The position numbers were made by a program, and so were the translations under genes. From assembly GCA_016841185.1 (NCBI GenBank), contig JAENZQ010000030.1, forward strand, positions 1 through 46,273: DNA of 46,273 nucleotides. The letters are read 5' to 3'. This stretch comes from Anaerovorax odorimutans. Lineage in GTDB: Bacteria; Bacillota; Clostridia; Peptostreptococcales; JAAYPU01. Shown here piece after piece: positions 754-7,791 of this stretch. Within the stretch, counting starts at the first letter, position 1. Each line of letters opens with the position of its first letter. The notes beneath the pieces were generated by a model. That model saw only the letters and a list, made by a program, of their open reading frames with translations. It was not told the origin of the DNA and did not search any database.

Positions 754-1578
754 TTACTTTAGTTTTGTAAGCTCTCTATAAGTTTCCACCTGTCTATCAG
801 TAAGCTGTGTATAATAACCCTGTCGAAACTTCTTTAATTCTAATAAGTCAAGCTCTCCCCAAATCATTCCGATTTGATCATTCAACATTTGTTTTATTTG
901 TCCAACAGGTCCTGTAATAACACTCTTTCCGAAGAATTCTAATTCAACATCTTTTCCTATCCAGTTGCTTGCTGCAATATAAATAATATTATCAAAAGAA
1001 CGGGCTTTTTGTACCAATACCCAATCATCTTCTTTAGGTCTTTCCCAAGCTGCAGGAACAGCAATAATTTCTGCGCCTTTCAGAGCAAGAATTCGCGCTG
1101 CCTCAGGAAATGCACAATCCCAACAGATCAGTATACCTACCCTTCCAAAAGGTGTATTAAATACAGGAAAATCCCTTCCACTATAAAACCACTGTGTCTC
1201 AAAATCTTTTACAAGATGCACTTTTCTATACTTACCAATTATTTCTCCAGTATCACTAACTATAACTGCTGTATTGAATAGCAATTGTTTTCTTCTATAT
1301 ATTGATTTTTCTGCAATGCCAAACACAATATGAACGCTAAATTTCCTTGCAATATCGGCTACCGCATGAATACTGCTTCCATTCGGATATTCTTCAGCCA
1401 TTTTAATATAACTGTCTCCGCATTCATAACCACATATAGTCAATTCCGGAAAGACAATAAGATCAATATCAGGTACTTTTTGTTTTATGCTATATGTCCA
1501 TTCTTTAATAGCATTTATGTTCTTTTTCTTATTCATTAACTCTGACTCGAATTGAACGCATGCAACCCTAGCTTTCAT
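754..1578 (-). CDS. Carbon-nitrogen hydrolase (nitrilase superfamily)
   Basis: The 274-aa protein has the full length of the nitrilase/amidase superfamily. All three catalytic residues are visible: Glu45 in FPELTICGY, Lys119 in GKYRKVHL, and Cys152 in ILICWDCAFPEAAR. Members hydrolyse amides, N-carbamoyl compounds (ureidopropionase, N-carbamoylputrescine amidase) or omega-amides in the cytoplasm; sequence reading does not fix the substrate. It is the last gene of a five-gene leftward operon headed by an agmatinase-like ureohydrolase, 30 bp after the alcohol dehydrogenase gene, so it probably acts late in breakdown of a guanidino or amide compound. The ATG has a GAGGTGAGG ribosome site just upstream. 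Confidence 0.9.
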   Translation of the reverse strand: MKARVACVQFESELMNKKKNINAIKEWTYSIKQKVPDIDLIVFPELTICGYECGDSYIKMAEEYPNGSSIHAVADIARKFSVHIVFGIAEKSIYRRKQLLFNTAVIVSDTGEIIGKYRKVHLVKDFETQWFYSGRDFPVFNTPFGRVGILICWDCAFPEAARILALKGAEIIAVPAAWERPKEDDWVLVQKARSFDNIIYIAASNWIGKDVELEFFGKSVITGPVGQIKQMLNDQIGMIWGELDLLELKKFRQGYYTQLTDRQVETYRELTKLK

Positions 1579-1608: not shown

Positions 1609-2769
1609 TTAATCTTCCTGAAATGCCGAACAAAGAACCTCCAAATAACCGTCTGTATCTATATCTCTGGCATTATCCTGGCTTAGAAGATTAGCAGCAG
1701 AAGTTTGAGCAATAGTAAAAAAGTTTTCTTGTTTGATATATTTTAATTCTTTTAGTTTTGGTATTTTAACAGCATTGCATAGTTCTTTAATCACACTTAC
1801 TCCCTCTTCGGCAATCTCCATCTTTGTTTTTCCTATTGGGTCAACTCCCATCTTTGATGCAACCATTGCATGTTTTTCTACATCCGCAGGAATATTATAT
1901 TTAAAAATATGCGGGAGAAATATAGAGTTACAAACTCCATGAGGCGTATCATACCAAGCTCCTATAGTTTCAGAAATAGCATGAACGGCACCTACATTTG
2001 AATTGATAAAAGCTATACCTGCCATAGTACTTGCATTCATCATGCTTGCACGCGCTTTTAAGTCATATCCTTTTTCTACGGCTTTTTGTACATTTTTATT
2101 AATCTGTTCAATCGCATATAGAGCAATGGCATCTGTTATTGGCTGCGCTGCTTTGCAAGTATATGCTTCTATTGCATGTGTCAAAGCATCGATCCCGGTA
2201 GAGGCTGTTAATGAAGGAGGAAGAGATAAGGTAATTTCCGGATCCGTAATAGCAACTTTTGGAATTAAACGAACAGGGTCGAAGATACTCATTTTATACT
2301 TTCTTTCACTGTCTGTAATAACAGCAACAAAGGTTACTTCACTTCCAGTTCCTGATGTGGTAGGTATGCATATAACCGGCAGCATTACTTCTTTCAGGGC
2401 CTTTCCGTCCCAATCCCTGCAAGTTCCGCCATTAGTCACCAATGCTGCCGTAGCCTTACATTGGTCCATTGAACTGCCTCCGCCCAAACCGATTATGGCA
2501 TCCACCTTTTCTTTCTTTGCAAGTTGAGTTGATAACCCGCAGTCTTCATCTCTCGGATTAGGACGCACATCCTTATATACGGCATAATCAATATCTGAAG
2601 CTTCCAAACTTTTTATTATCTTTTTCATTGCATCACTTTTAGCTAGAAATGAATCTGTAATGATCAGAACTTTCTTAGCTCCTATTTCCAATGCCTCTTT
2701 CCCTACTAATTGTATCGTGCCTGCTCCTGATACCACTTTAGTTGCATGATAAAAATTTTGTGAATTCAT
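1609..2769 (-). CDS. Iron-containing alcohol dehydrogenase
   Basis: A group III (iron-containing) NAD(P)-dependent alcohol dehydrogenase of 386 aa, about the family's usual length. Visible are the GGGSSMDQCKA dinucleotide-binding loop near residue 95, the metal-binding helix segment GIDALTHAIEAYT, and the second metal motif HAISETIGAWYDTPHGVCNS. It likely interconverts an alcohol and an aldehyde. Within this operon a role such as reducing an aldehyde left after deamination (for example succinate semialdehyde to 4-hydroxybutyrate) is possible but inferred. I chose the ATG at 2769, not the one 18 bp upstream, because AGAAGGA lies at ideal distance only from 2769. It sits 46 bp after the permease gene. 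Confidence 0.9.
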   Translation of the reverse strand: MNSQNFYHATKVVSGAGTIQLVGKEALEIGAKKVLIITDSFLAKSDAMKKIIKSLEASDIDYAVYKDVRPNPRDEDCGLSTQLAKKEKVDAIIGLGGGSSMDQCKATAALVTNGGTCRDWDGKALKEVMLPVICIPTTSGTGSEVTFVAVITDSERKYKMSIFDPVRLIPKVAITDPEITLSLPPSLTASTGIDALTHAIEAYTCKAAQPITDAIALYAIEQINKNVQKAVEKGYDLKARASMMNASTMAGIAFINSNVGAVHAISETIGAWYDTPHGVCNSIFLPHIFKYNIPADVEKHAMVASKMGVDPIGKTKMEIAEEGVSVIKELCNAVKIPKLKELKYIKQENFFTIAQTSAANLLSQDNARDIDTDGYLEVLCSAFQED

Positions 2770-2814
2770 TTTTATTCCTTCTTTCATTTGTATTAAATCT
2801 TCTTAATCATAATC

Positions 2815-4221
2815 TTATTTATAGCCTCCAACATTATTTTTCAATAATAATACTTTACCCAGTATATAATAGAGAGCCCCTGAAAATATTACCGATGCTC
2901 CTGATGCGGTAATATACTTAAAGGGTTCTTTATAGGCTAAAGTAACAGGATTAAGAAACAGAAGGTAGAAGGGCATTCCAACTAAAAACACAAAAATAGC
3001 CACCCAGTTTATACCCTTCCAGAAGTTATACTTCGATGTCTCTGTTCTGTTATATAAACTGCGAATGTCAAGATTTTGTTTTCTGAATATAAAATAGTCT
3101 ACGAAATTAATGGCCACTAATGGACAATAAAAGGTACAGGTTATACCCAGAAGAATATAAAAATTATCATAAATTTGGGAAGGCCAAAGAATTAAACCAA
3201 TCACACAAGGCAACAAAAAAAGCATTACTGTTGTTCCCCAGCTTCTTTTTTGGAATGCCTTTATCATCTTTAGCCCTAAACACATATTATATACAACAAT
3301 AGAATTTGATGTTAAATTTGCTATTGCCACAAAAATCAAAGCAATTATACCAAGAATTATGCCTCCCAGTGGAATCATCCATTCTGTGGGATCGCTACTT
3401 CCAATTGTCAAAGCTGCTGCTACCCCGATGGCCGTTCCAATTGTGGCAGCGATTACAAGGCCTACGATATTAGGCCAAAAGGCTGCTTTAGTGCTCTTGC
3501 AGAGTCGTGCCATGCCTCCCATATTCGGCCACCAGGATAAACCGGCTCCGAGATTTAATTCAAAAGCAATTAAAAAATTAACCCAATCGCTTTCAAAAGG
3601 AAACAGAGGCTTAGCATTAATAATGGTAGCCCATCCAACATCTTTTGAAATAATTATCAGCATACCAATCATAACAATAATTAACATAGGTGCGACTATT
3701 GCATTTAAAGTCTTCATAACCAAAGGGCCTTTCCATACAATAATCCATACAAGAAACACGGCTATTATTGACATTATGCCTACAAACCCTGCCCCCATGG
3801 TTTCCGTTCCTACGGCAACACTGGTTAAATTATCTACTGATCTTGCGAACATGATAGAAAGCACGATAATCCAAGCTATCTGAAAAATAACGATACATGC
3901 CATCAATATATAAGTTCCGCTTCTTCCCAAATAACTATTTGCATTGGTATAGTTATCTGTACCGTATTTAGCACCAGGTAAAGTGGTACCCATAATCATA
4001 ATCAGGACTGCCACCATATTACCCGATATAGTTGCTATTACCGAAGTCCAAAAACCAACAAATAACGATAAAGTTCCTCCGATTAAAAAACACCATGTCG
4101 CAATCGCAAAGCCAATGTTAATATAAGAATTATCTAAAATATTATAAGGCCGTTCTTCCTTTAAAACAGGCAGCACTCCAAATTGAGCCTCGCTGTTTGC
4201 TTCAAAATTCTTATTCTTCAT
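2815..4221 (-). CDS. NCS1-family nucleobase/nitrogen-compound permease
   Basis: A 468-aa integral membrane protein with about twelve hydrophobic segments. It carries NCS1 (cytosine/purine, uracil, allantoin) features: the early block NIGFAIATWCFLIGGTLSLFVGFW, the SWWPNMGGMARL region in the middle, and NSIVVYNMCLGL later. NCS1 carriers import nucleobases, hydantoins, allantoin and related ring or ureido compounds with H+ or Na+. The start has an AAAGGAG site 9 bases upstream. It lies 18 bp downstream of the 72-aa membrane protein gene and upstream of the alcohol dehydrogenase gene, so it is the likely uptake system for the substrate of the operon's hydrolases. The exact substrate cannot be told. 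Confidence 0.9.
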   Translation of the reverse strand: MKNKNFEANSEAQFGVLPVLKEERPYNILDNSYINIGFAIATWCFLIGGTLSLFVGFWTSVIATISGNMVAVLIMIMGTTLPGAKYGTDNYTNANSYLGRSGTYILMACIVIFQIAWIIVLSIMFARSVDNLTSVAVGTETMGAGFVGIMSIIAVFLVWIIVWKGPLVMKTLNAIVAPMLIIVMIGMLIIISKDVGWATIINAKPLFPFESDWVNFLIAFELNLGAGLSWWPNMGGMARLCKSTKAAFWPNIVGLVIAATIGTAIGVAAALTIGSSDPTEWMIPLGGIILGIIALIFVAIANLTSNSIVVYNMCLGLKMIKAFQKRSWGTTVMLFLLPCVIGLILWPSQIYDNFYILLGITCTFYCPLVAINFVDYFIFRKQNLDIRSLYNRTETSKYNFWKGINWVAIFVFLVGMPFYLLFLNPVTLAYKEPFKYITASGASVIFSGALYYILGKVLLLKNNVGGYK

Positions 4222-4523: not shown

Positions 4524-5471
4524 CTACTTCTTTTTATTTGATGCGATTTGAGTGATAAACTCATAAATGATTCCTGCGGCTGCAAAGGATGTGATATCCC
4601 CATGATCACTTGCAGGAAGCACTTCAACCAAATCAAAACCCTTAAAATTCAAACCCCTAAGGCCTTTTCTCACCAGCTCCTGAGCTTCCCATGTAGTAAA
4701 TCCCCCGATTTCAGGAGTACCGGTTCCCGGCGCATATGCAGGATCAAGAAAATCGATATCAAACGAAACCAATACCGGCGTACCATCCCCTGTTTTTTTC
4801 TGTATCCGTTCTGCTGCAAAATCGATTCCCTTCCTGTGAATATCTCCCGACGTCAGAACTTCAAATCCAAATTCTCTTGCATCTTTGATATCTCCCGGCT
4901 CATATAAAGGGCCTCTCATGCCGAGCTGAATAGATTTCTCCGGGATCAGGCACCCTTCTTCCAGAGCTCTCCTGAATGGTGTACCGTGGGTATATCTCAT
5001 TCCCCAGTAGTTGTCCCATGTATCGCTGTGGGAATCGAAATGTACCAGCGCAACCGGGCCATTGGCTTCTTTCAGTGCCCTCAGTTCTCCTAAGGAGATA
5101 GAATGATCTCCTCCAATGCAAATTGGGATCACGCCCTTTTTATATACAGGCTTTAACTGGTCTATCATTCTTTCATATGTTTCCAGAATATAACCCGGGA
5201 TGATATCGATATCACCGTAATCGGCTCCGGAAACATGTTCAAAAATATTGATATCCTGTTCATAATTGTAGGGCCTAAGTAATATTGATGCCTCCCTCAC
5301 TGCCTGCGGGCCAAATCTTGCCCCGCTTCTGAAAGAGCATCCGGTATCAAATGGAACCCCTGTTACAATAAAATCAACGTCCTCTAATGCTTGTATCTCC
5401 GGCAATCTCATAAAAGTACGATTACCGCAAAACCTGGGTGACTTGGATGAATCGATTGGCTGATATTTCAT
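4524..5471 (-). CDS. Agmatinase/guanidino-acid ureohydrolase family protein
   Basis: A 315-aa member of the arginase/agmatinase family, which uses two metal ions to split a guanidino group and release urea. The metal ligands are visible: His in IGGDHSIS, the Asp and His cluster HFDSHSDTWD, and the Asp pair in SFDIDFLDPAYAPGTGTPE. The segment CSFRSGARFGPQAVREASILLRPYN resembles guanidinobutyrase/guanidinopropionase-type enzymes as much as classic agmatinase, so substrate (agmatine versus a guanidino acid) is open. The start at 5471 was chosen over the ATG 18 bp upstream because GGAGAGG lies at correct distance. It is the first gene of the operon, about 30 bp after the predicted sigma-54 transcription start. 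Confidence 0.9.
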   Translation of the reverse strand: MKYQPIDSSKSPRFCGNRTFMRLPEIQALEDVDFIVTGVPFDTGCSFRSGARFGPQAVREASILLRPYNYEQDINIFEHVSGADYGDIDIIPGYILETYERMIDQLKPVYKKGVIPICIGGDHSISLGELRALKEANGPVALVHFDSHSDTWDNYWGMRYTHGTPFRRALEEGCLIPEKSIQLGMRGPLYEPGDIKDAREFGFEVLTSGDIHRKGIDFAAERIQKKTGDGTPVLVSFDIDFLDPAYAPGTGTPEIGGFTTWEAQELVRKGLRGLNFKGFDLVEVLPASDHGDITSFAAAGIIYEFITQIASNKKK

Positions 5472-5514
5472 GTTTTCCTCTCCTATCATAAAAATTGCAT
5501 ATTATTTTCATTTC

Positions 5515-5530
5515 GCAAACTTCATGCCAA
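5515..5530 (-). promoter_or_regulatory. Sigma-54 (-24/-12) promoter of ureohydrolase operon
   Basis: Read on the minus strand the bases are TTGGCATGAAGTTTGC, a near-perfect match to the sigma-54 consensus TGGCAYR-N4-TTGCW. The invariant GG is at 5528-5527 and the GC at 5516-5515, giving a predicted start near 5503 and a leader of about 30 bases before the ureohydrolase ATG. The adjacent gene encodes a sigma-54 enhancer-binding protein, which fits well. Confidence 0.88.
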
Positions 5531-5569
5531 TACATTTTTCCTTAAAAACGGGCATTTTATATAAAGCAA

Positions 5570-5605
5570 CAAGACTATTTATTCATTTGTGAATAAATAG
5601 TCTTG
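5570..5605. promoter_or_regulatory. Upstream activator dyad 1 (extended inverted repeat)
   Basis: The core TATTCATTTGTGAATA (5580-5595) lies inside a perfect 36-bp inverted repeat with 16-bp arms and a 4-base centre. It continues as an imperfect stem to about 5562-5613. The core is shared with two further dyads at 5660 and 5680. Its centre is about 85 bp upstream of the predicted sigma-54 start, a usual place for an enhancer-binding protein. The long stem could also help terminate the upstream regulator transcript. Confidence 0.72.
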
Positions 5606-5659
5606 TTTGCTTTACTTCAGTGTTAATAAATCTTCAGATTTTTCAAATACTTTCATGGC

Positions 5660-5675
5660 TATTCATATATGAATA
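5660..5675. promoter_or_regulatory. Upstream activator dyad 2
   Basis: TATTCATATATGAATA, a perfect dyad with the same TATTCA-N4-TGAATA arms as dyads 1 and 3. Its centre is 80 bp from dyad 1 and about 165 bp upstream of the predicted sigma-54 start. Confidence 0.72.
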
Positions 5676-5679
5676 GGTT

Positions 5680-5695
5680 TATTCACGTGTGAATA
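5680..5695. promoter_or_regulatory. Upstream activator dyad 3
   Basis: TATTCACGTGTGAATA, the third perfect TATTCA-N4-TGAATA dyad, lying inside a longer 24-bp palindrome. It is centred exactly 20 bp (about two helical turns) from dyad 2, so both sites face the same side of the DNA, as expected for cooperative binding of an enhancer-binding protein. Confidence 0.72.
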
Positions 5696-5870
5696 AACCG
5701 TATCCGCAGATTTGCCTAAGCTGCAAAAGAAAACTTTGCCCACGCAAAGCATATTTCTATAGATAATAAAAGGTATATTCAAGGATGAAGATAGCCTTCT
5801 TAAATATTGATTTTTATTCATTTTGGATTTTAATAATGCCCGGCAAATACTTAACCCCTATATTGAAAGG

Positions 5871-7514
5871 CTACCTGTCGGATAGAAGAATATGCTTTTT
5901 AATTTTTCTAACTGCTGTCGGCTGGCTAATGCCTAATTCTTTGGCGACCCCTACGGTAGTTTTTCTCTTTTCATAAGCCTCAATTACCATTTGTCTTTCC
6001 ACTTCTTCAAGGGCCTCTTCCAAAGTATCGTATTTTCTTTTCGAGTTATTTTTTTTCATGATTTGTGGAATTAGAGAAACATCAATAATATCCTGCTTTG
6101 AAACCAAAACCATTCTTTCTATTAAATTCTCAAGCTCTCTGATATTTCCTGGCCACTCATATTTCATGAAATAGTCAAATATTTCCGACTTAAAGGTTTT
6201 ATTCTGGTAATATTTTTTATTATATTTATCGAGAAAATACATACTGAGATGAATAATATCATCCTTGCGTTCTCGTATGGGCGGCAACTCAATATAAATA
6301 ACATTCAACCTATAATATAGATCTTCTCTGAACAATCCCTTGCTGATAAGGTTTTTTAAATTCCTGTTTGTTGCTGTAATTAATCTGAAATCAACACTAA
6401 TATTTTCGGTTCCTCCAATGCGTGTAATTTTCTTATCTTGTATCACTTTAAGGAGTTTCATTTGCAGGTTTAACGGCAACTCTCCAATCTCATCCAAAAA
6501 TAATGTACCGCAATCCGCAAGCTCAATGAGCCCAACTTTTCCTTTAACATTTGCGCCGGTAAATGCGCCCTTCTCGTATCCGAATAATTCGGACTCTAAA
6601 AGGTTCTCAGGAATAGCACCGCAATCTATTTCTATAAGAGGGCCTTCAGCACGTCCACTCTTGGAATGTATAATCCGGGCAAACATAGTCTTTCCTACAC
6701 CTGATTCACCTTCAATAAGTATACTGGCATCAAATTCAGAGACTCTGTATATCGTATCTATTACATTTTGAATCTTTTTACTGTTTCCAACAACATCCGG
6801 ATAACTTTTGTTTTTTCCTCTTAATTCTTCTATTTCCGCAGTAAATCTCTCCACCTTGTTTTCAAGCAAAGCATATTGCTCTTTTAGTTTAACGAAATCC
6901 GTTAAGTCTCTGGTGAAACTAATAACTTTTAATATGTCACCTTGTTGGTTTTTAACAGGAGCAGCAGTCACAATCAGCTTTCGGCCATCCCCGGTTTCTT
7001 GCATCATGGTAACCTGTTCTCCACATTTTAAAACTTTTGCAGTAATAGAAGGCTTGAAAATCCCCATTCTTTCCAGTTCAAAAACACTTCGACCTTCCAC
7101 TTCCTCTTTCTTTACATTATAAACTTTTTCGAAAGATTCATAAGCCCTTGTAATAATGCCTTTTCCATCTGTTATAAGAATGTCATCATGTATCGCATTG
7201 AGAAAAATATCCACCTCATCTTTTAATGCTTTAACCTTCTCTGTATTTAATAAGGTTCTTTCTATTTCCAATGTTTTATATATGATGAATATATCTTGAC
7301 CCTTCCATGTACCCAGATGGTTAATAATGATTTCAGTATCATCCAAATTGCTCAATTCTATCCTTTTTTTGTCTTCTTTCATTTTTTTGAAAAGGTTTTT
7401 TAACTCAGCATTAATTAAGGCATAAGACTGTGCAATGTCATTAAGCCTAATCGTTTCGCTTTCAGCATTGTATAAATAAACCGCCTCTTTAAAACAACTG
7501 ATAAAATCATTCAT
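5871..7514 (-). CDS. Sigma-54-dependent transcriptional activator (PAS, AAA+, Fis)
   Basis: A 547-aa enhancer-binding protein. Residues ~1-100 are an unassigned sensor region, ~105-215 a PAS domain, ~215-235 a coiled linker, ~240-470 the AAA+ sigma-54 activation domain, and ~500-545 a Fis/TyrR-like helix-turn-helix (TTVGVAKELGISQPTAVRKI). The AAA+ domain shows Walker A GESGVGKT, the sigma-54-contacting GAFTGA loop in GYEKGAFTGAN, Walker B TLFLDEIGELP and the FREDLYYRLNV arginine-finger region. The start at 7514 was chosen because GGAG lies 8 bases upstream; GTG at 7523 and ATG at 7520 crowd that site. It lies directly upstream of the ureohydrolase operon, in the same direction, and most likely activates it through the three dyads. 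Confidence 0.93.
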   Translation of the reverse strand: MNDFISCFKEAVYLYNAESETIRLNDIAQSYALINAELKNLFKKMKEDKKRIELSNLDDTEIIINHLGTWKGQDIFIIYKTLEIERTLLNTEKVKALKDEVDIFLNAIHDDILITDGKGIITRAYESFEKVYNVKKEEVEGRSVFELERMGIFKPSITAKVLKCGEQVTMMQETGDGRKLIVTAAPVKNQQGDILKVISFTRDLTDFVKLKEQYALLENKVERFTAEIEELRGKNKSYPDVVGNSKKIQNVIDTIYRVSEFDASILIEGESGVGKTMFARIIHSKSGRAEGPLIEIDCGAIPENLLESELFGYEKGAFTGANVKGKVGLIELADCGTLFLDEIGELPLNLQMKLLKVIQDKKITRIGGTENISVDFRLITATNRNLKNLISKGLFREDLYYRLNVIYIELPPIRERKDDIIHLSMYFLDKYNKKYYQNKTFKSEIFDYFMKYEWPGNIRELENLIERMVLVSKQDIIDVSLIPQIMKKNNSKRKYDTLEEALEEVERQMVIEAYEKRKTTVGVAKELGISQPTAVRKIKKHILLSDR

Positions 7515-7567
7515 AACCATCACTCCGCTGCTATTTTATATTAATTTACATTATATCTTATTTGCAA

Positions 7568-7621
7568 CACTACTTATAGTGAAAAATAATTCAAACCCAA
7601 GTAGTCAAATCTGATTTGACT
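7568..7621. promoter_or_regulatory. Two dyads upstream of the sigma-54 activator gene
   Basis: The 277-bp gap between the activator gene and the next gene holds two inverted repeats: CACTA-CTTA-TAGTG (7568-7581) and AGTCAAAT-CTG-ATTTGACT (7603-7621). A TATAAT-like box lies nearer the gene on the minus strand (about 7546-7541). They are candidate operators for the activator gene; neither matches the TATTCA-N4-TGAATA dyads, so simple autoregulation through that site is not indicated. Confidence 0.4.
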
Positions 7622-7791
7622 TGTGGTATCTCCACTTATTTTTGCATTTCTATAACTACAAAATGTATGTTAACGCAATTTCCATGCCATTTAAGATAGA
7701 TATCAAATCATAACTCTACCAGCAAAAATAAAAAGTGACATACGTTTATGAATAATAATATAATTGGTTTGCCTTTTAGCAGCAAAAGTTT

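Follow-up and report, generated by a model that had tools for sequence, protein, structure and literature searches.

TATTCA-N4-TGAATA dyads as probable activating sites of a PAS-type sigma-54 regulator beside a ureohydrolase operon

Three perfect TATTCA-N4-TGAATA dyads ahead of a ureohydrolase operon are very probably upstream activating sites, at which the neighbouring PAS-type activator would bind and switch on the uptake and hydrolysis of guanidino acids. The dyads lie in the window, by which we mean the whole 46,273-nucleotide stretch analysed (G000:C37:1-46273); this is contig C37 in a genome of 3.56 Mb. We consider them docking sites of the neighbouring regulator because the same dyad recurs at the same type of promoter beside that regulator's relatives. 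According to the sequence comparison, motif, spacing and gene neighbourhood all recur in these relatives.

The operon and its regulator

On the minus strand, the gene of an enhancer-binding protein is followed, after a gap of 381 bp, by genes for a ureohydrolase, a small protein, an NCS1 permease, an alcohol dehydrogenase and a carbon-nitrogen hydrolase (Table 1). The regulator comprises PAS, Sigma54_activat (PF00158, 229.6 bits) and HTH_50 (PF18024, 37.2 bits) domains. The GAFTGA loop was read in its sequence and, with an AAA+ domain and a C-terminal HTH, the protein has the make-up of a bacterial enhancer-binding protein, in agreement with an earlier sequence-only reading that had placed a GAFTGA-type protein beside the dyads. 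The best-scoring NCBIfam family for this protein is PrdR (NF041552, over residues 49-543); at 427.2 bits against a cut-off of 795, its identification as PrdR was rejected. Another enhancer-binding protein encoded in this genome, a paralogue at G000:C86:42285-43664 (L009, L214), is reported to have an in-frame TGA within the match.

The ureohydrolase probably starts at the ATG at 5471, behind an AGGAG. No NCBIfam match at E 1e-20 was found for the 72-residue small protein, which is possibly a transporter accessory.

Table 1. Features of the window, in order of position.
Feature	Position	Strand	Remarks
Carbon-nitrogen hydrolase (nitrilase superfamily)	754..1578	-	PF00795
Iron-containing alcohol dehydrogenase	1609..2787	-	PF00465/PF25137
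NCS1-family permease	2815..4221	-	PF02133
Small protein, 72 aa	4240..4458	-	Hydrophobic stretch; ahead of permease
Ureohydrolase	4524..5489	-	TIGR01230 210.3 bits, cut-off 174.3
-24/-12 (sigma-54) promoter TGGCATGAAGTTTGC	5515..5529	-	GG and GC 12 bp apart
Dyad 1, TATTCA-TTTG-TGAATA	5580..5595	.	Within perfect palindrome 5568-5607, 18-bp arms
Dyad 2, TATTCA-TATA-TGAATA	5660..5675	.	Within perfect palindrome 5659-5676
Dyad 3, TATTCA-CGTG-TGAATA	5680..5695	.	Within palindrome 5676-5699; 20 bp from dyad 2
Hairpin resembling a terminator, with T-rich tail, behind regulator gene	5733..5750	-	No clear advantage in folding over shuffled sequence, z -1.26
Imperfect fourth dyad TATTCAAGGATGAAGA (1 mismatch)	5776..5791	.	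246 bp from -24 box; role uncertain
PAS-AAA+-HTH_50 sigma-54 enhancer-binding protein	5871..7523	-	Recognition helix SQPTAVRK; proposed dyad binder
Second strict -24/-12 site TGGCATGGAAATTGC	7675..7689	-	Upstream of regulator gene, pointing at it

The sigma-54 promoter

Sigma-54 promoters conform to a consensus near TGGCAC-N5-TTGC, with GG at -24 and GC at -12. On the minus strand, TTGGCATGAAGTTTGC at 5530..5515 fits TGGCAYR-N4-TTGC, and the consensus match claimed by the sequence-only reading is thus present as a perfect site. Across the genome, the strict pattern TGGCAY-N5-TTGC occurs 62 times and its reversal 3 times, and a single rpoN gene exceeds the model cut-off (TIGR02395, 464.2 bits); on these base rates the promoter call is credible. 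Given the usual 12-nt offset, transcription would start near 5503.

A feature that the earlier reading had not reported is a second strict site (7689..7675), which points at the regulator gene from upstream and may mean that this gene, too, is sigma-54-driven, by some activator. Beside this site we found no TATTCA dyad, even with one mismatch allowed. A palindrome with 9-bp arms lies at 7603-7621, between this site and the regulator's start codon.

Dyads in the window and their chance expectation

The centres of the three dyads lie 84.5, 164.5 and 184.5 bp from 5503, matching the distances of about 85, 165 and 185 bp first proposed, and the exact copies at 5660 and 5680 bear out the 20-bp step between dyads 2 and 3. 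The longer perfect palindromes that enclose the dyads, and the imperfect fourth dyad, had been missed.

Could such palindromes arise by chance in an A+T-rich gap? Gaps of this kind do hold palindromes and, with up to two mismatches allowed, the window contains 10 dyad matches where 8.3 are expected. The exact dyad behaves differently: its three copies in the 3.56-Mb genome all fall in the window within 116 bp, as against one place for the reversed control pattern, and composition predicts about 1.25 copies genome-wide and 0.00023 in the 381-bp gap. Conservation across genomes, described below, likewise speaks against chance. On the strength of genome uniqueness, the composition expectation, the permutation control and the pattern-only searches, a chance origin was rejected, and we regard its probability as negligible.

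Among the 34 one-mismatch dyads of the genome, only the copy at 5776, in the gap itself, has one of the 62 strict sites no more than 300 bp downstream of it. For this reason the regulon in this genome looks like a single operon.

Recurrence of the dyad beside related regulators

The comparison covered 160 loci that contain relatives of the regulator. Named genomes supplied 80 of these, and the other 80 are regions around genome-search matches; the window itself is not among them. The scan of named genomes yielded no relative above 50% identity; the closest orthologue found in the wider genome search is 68% identical (L136). The exact dyad occurs 26 times in these loci, and 24 of the 26 copies have a -24/-12-like site on the appropriate strand 20-300 bp downstream. 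By contrast, the 59 other permutations of the half-site occur 18 times together, six of these near -24/-12-like sites, and TATTCA and TGAATA separated by other spacers of 0-12 give 0-2 matches each. The two remaining exact dyads are in L179 and L136. In L136 the dyad stands 74 bp upstream of TGGCATGTTTTATGC, ahead of transporter, ureohydrolase and regulator genes, and the ureohydrolase is 73% identical to that of the window.

Lack of conservation beside orthologous operons had been named at the outset as evidence that would count against the dyads; instead, they recur at the relatives' sigma-54 promoters. Conserved palindromes at sigma-54 promoters beside related regulators are what is expected of upstream activating sites.

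Dyad type, recognition helix and clade

To relate the dyad to its presumed binder, we aligned 161 regulators on the recognition helix. Alanine occupies the position that it holds in the window's SQPT-A-VRK in 40 of them, the window included. A dyad with at most one mismatch lies at a -24/-12-like site in 23 of the 40 Ala-helix loci versus 2 of the 121 others (Fisher 5e-15, a value that ignores relatedness); for the exact dyad the counts are 15/40 and 1/121. The two regulators with dyads but another residue are L027 (exact) and L024 (one mismatch).

In 17 of the 40 Ala-helix loci, no dyad was found near a promoter in the stretch read. These 17 include the five Ala members of a seven-row subclade with changed helices; L136, which gains a dyad promoter once the weaker -12 element ATGC is allowed; and L141, whose genome (G192) has a dyad promoter elsewhere.

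Dyads built on GATTCA, GATACA or GTTTCA, half-sites chosen after the permutation results were seen, accompany 14 of 33 regulators with valine at the helix position, 1 of 32 with isoleucine, 1 of 49 with leucine and none of the 40 with alanine. It is as if the regulator family used a graded set of half-sites. N4 palindromes of these types occur at the sigma-54 promoters of neighbouring regulator groups (L158, L172, L177, L190, L206, L212, L213 and others).

We also built a tree of 93 rows from which the HTH had been left out. In it, 38 of the 40 Ala rows group with two Val rows in a single supported clade (SH-aLRT 99), and the other two Ala rows, L182 and L207, fall elsewhere. Alanine changes four times on the tree, and an independent-pairs test with two usable pairs on supported branches did not support residue and dyad moving together. 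Alanine and ancestry are therefore inseparable as the source of specificity.

These data also bear on the idea that the dyads are bound by some regulator other than the neighbouring enhancer-binding protein. The genome does encode at least six further proteins of this kind, with 38-46% identity, yet the dyads follow the clade of the neighbouring regulator across genomes, and an exact or one-mismatch dyad occurs in none of six paralogue loci (L007, L009, L011-L014; about 1.5 kb on each side). We consider a different binder very improbable.

Searches by pattern without the regulator

The sequence-only reading had suggested that the motif could be used to find the regulon. We searched for a dyad followed after 45-75 bp by a strict -24/-12 site, with the reversed pattern as control. 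At the level of the order, this pattern occurs at 10 places in 9 of 393 genomes (control, 0); six of these places, counting the window, are promoters next to regulators known from the locus comparison. At G124:C2 and G192:C33, the matches lie at ureohydrolase and BCCT-transporter genes, and no regulator match was found in the 14 kb read at either place. A further match, at G347:C53, precedes a BCCT gene and then a piece of a ureohydrolase gene truncated by the end of the 4-kb contig; the stretch read there has no regulator either. At G015:C1, a regulator with the helix SQPKA is accompanied by two CoA-transferases and a BCCT transporter.

The class-level search returned three places in 391 genomes (the window, G015 and G675:C3; control, 0). 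At G675:C3, a regulator with an SQPKA helix adjoins genes for an MttB-type and a methyltetrahydrofolate:corrinoid methyltransferase. Widening the search to spacings of 76-106 bp gave one place in 393 genomes, already known (control, 0). The motif does lead to further targets in other genomes, namely ureohydrolase and BCCT genes without a linked regulator in the stretch read.

Promoter architecture

Twenty-six promoters were assembled, five of them from the pattern searches with their fixed 45-75 bp. Successive dyads are 19-21 bp apart in 15 of 36 spacings, five of the 15 coming from related Oscillibacter/Oscillospiraceae loci; on this count, the 20-bp pair of the window is a recurrent arrangement. 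The dyad nearest the -24 box lies 40-141 bp from it across the 26 promoters. This distance is 50-53 bp in 8 of the 26, or in 5 of 21 without the promoters from the pattern searches.

Hairpins and pairing of the flanks

Instead, the palindromes might chiefly form RNA or DNA hairpins that either terminate the regulator transcript or act as an insulator in front of the sigma-54 promoter; any likeness to enhancer sites would then be secondary. Several observations lend weight to this. The region 5548-5625 around dyad 1 folds with a z of -10.2, dyad 1 with its 18-bp arms being an extreme case, and a terminator scan marks 5568-5607 on both strands. Moreover, over eight flank positions of 35 exact dyads, 0.51 of cells are self-complementary, compared with 0.274 when left and right flanks are re-paired between sites (sd 0.028, maximum 0.36 of 1000). 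The corresponding values are 0.435 and 0.262 in a 25-dyad subset (0/2000 reach the observed value) and 0.398 and 0.297 in 22 G-type dyads (2/2000). At the promoter-proximal dyad of five Oscillibacter/Oscillospiraceae loci, the flanks differ yet pair (26/35 Watson-Crick), a degree of covariation reached by one of 120 permutations, namely the observed one.

Other observations do not fit a hairpin as the main function. A hairpin does not need the 12-base core that is kept across genera. Little flank pairing is seen at dyad 2 of the window, and at the distal dyad of the same five loci the flanks are conserved and non-pairing (3/35). Under strict extension, 12 of the 35 dyads lack any pairing flank base. 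In the promoter direction, the tails of 18 extended sites have 3.5 T of 9 versus 1.8 for the 17 other sites (p 0.025); however, the T-tails of extended sites are equal in both directions (3.5 and 3.4) and hence not directional. The stretch after the regulator gene also holds another terminator-like element, at 5733-5750. Since the T-tails are unconvincing despite the flank pairing, the terminator reading was demoted to a rival, and we judge hairpins as the main function to be improbable.

Self-complementary, non-conserved flanks were seen at 5568-5607 in the window and at dyads in L017, L018, L020, L022, L023, L137, L143, L255 and L258. Such complementarity fits selection for a hairpin; quasi-palindrome mutation without selection is an equally open explanation. 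Some dyads could serve two purposes, with a core for the activator and flanks kept self-complementary but free in sequence, such that a hairpin (terminator, insulator or cruciform) would shield or gate the sigma-54 promoter. We put this forward as a tentative idea that is rather unlikely to hold.

Function of the operon and of its relatives

Using five ureohydrolase seeds (the window, L138, L140, L152 and L255), with which more distant homologues could be missed, we found a ureohydrolase homologue in 9 of 23 loci with both Ala helix and dyad, in 1 of 16 with Ala helix and no dyad (L136), and in 1 of 121 others. The window's enzyme passes the TIGR01230 agmatinase cut-off but falls below that of the agmatinase subfamily model NF002564 (279.3 vs 302). 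Among proteins of solved structure, those nearest to it are 3-guanidinopropionase, guanidinobutyrase and proclavaminate amidinohydrolase. The tyrosine of its NYWG loop aligns with RYFG of 3-guanidinopropionase and HMFG of guanidinobutyrase, at a position that presumably sets ureohydrolase specificity.

The regulator of L139 is surrounded by relatives of three window proteins, the permease (at 61%), the dehydrogenase (at 69%) and the nitrilase (at 46%). The neighbours of other members are BCCT transporters, cyclase-family proteins, CoA-transferases or methyltransferases, and those of the Oscillibacter/Oscillospiraceae members are HpaB-family and enoyl-CoA hydratase genes. In L022, the regulator is followed immediately by a sigma-54 gene (5756-7096; TIGR02395) that is oriented divergently to the dyad promoter; L020 and L021, also of Oscillibacter/Oscillospiraceae, contain frames similar to it, TIGR02395 being confirmed for L022 only.

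Substrate and inducer are guessed from gene content. From this we infer that the ligands would be guanidino acids and similar zwitterions, which is the weakest step of our interpretation.

Proposed mechanism and known systems

If the dyads are upstream activating sites, the neighbouring PAS-type enhancer-binding protein would bind them as dimers. Those on dyads 2 and 3 would be stacked, with about two turns of the helix between them, and dyad 1 would be occupied close to the promoter. Sensing of a ligand by the regulator, probably a guanidino acid or related zwitterion, would lead to oligomerisation, and the oligomer would contact sigma-54 polymerase at 5515-5529 through DNA looping. The polymerase would then transcribe the ureohydrolase, small protein, NCS1 permease, iron alcohol dehydrogenase and nitrilase genes as one operon.

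In the passages of PMC6615313 on clostridial sigma-54 regulons, enhancer-binding proteins with a Fis-type HTH mostly lie beside their target operons, often with multiple upstream sites; most sites are 100-250 bp from the promoter and 65% of regulators have one operon. The window shares the adjoining regulator, the multiple upstream sites and an apparent one-operon regulon. Table 1 of that study has no ureohydrolase operon as such, AguQ covering the agmatine genes aguDA/aguBC, and the strings "ureohydr" and "agmatinase" are absent from its available text.

GabR of Bacillus thuringiensis, as described in passages of PMC4279683, is likewise an activator with PAS, AAA+ and HTH parts that works at a sigma-54 promoter; its inverted-repeat site (21-bp repeat) falls in a 96-bp DNase I footprint, and its PAS domain represses until GABA is added. 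It differs in its target, gabT, and the passages and primer list of that paper contain no TATTCA dyad; the likeness is drawn from domains and promoter type. As proposed here for the window's ureohydrolase, arginase and agmatinase enzymes (COG0010) are among the COGs mainly sigma-54-regulated in Bacillota according to passages of PMC12316311, which give no regulator or binding motif.

As far as these passages go, it is already established that PAS-type activators exert sigma-54 control, that palindromes lie upstream and that a regulon may comprise one operon (PMC6615313, PMC4279683). Among the papers listed by a literature search confined to text outside figures and supplements, we recognised no description of TATTCA-N4-TGAATA; the motif may already stand in some published figure or supplement.

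The proposed mechanism is ordinary, and the motif is useful as a handle on the regulon. For a clade of activators for which we found no name, this handle consists of TATTCA-N4-TGAATA, tandem pairs at 19-21 bp and a distance of 40-141 bp between the -24 box and the first dyad; regulons can therefore be called even where the regulator gene lies elsewhere. Many activators of the clade are tied to ureohydrolase and BCCT/NCS1 transporter genes. The change from TATTCA to GATTCA, GATACA or GTTTCA between neighbouring regulator groups makes a recognition-helix code testable, and the covarying flanks pose the question of further roles for these palindromes.
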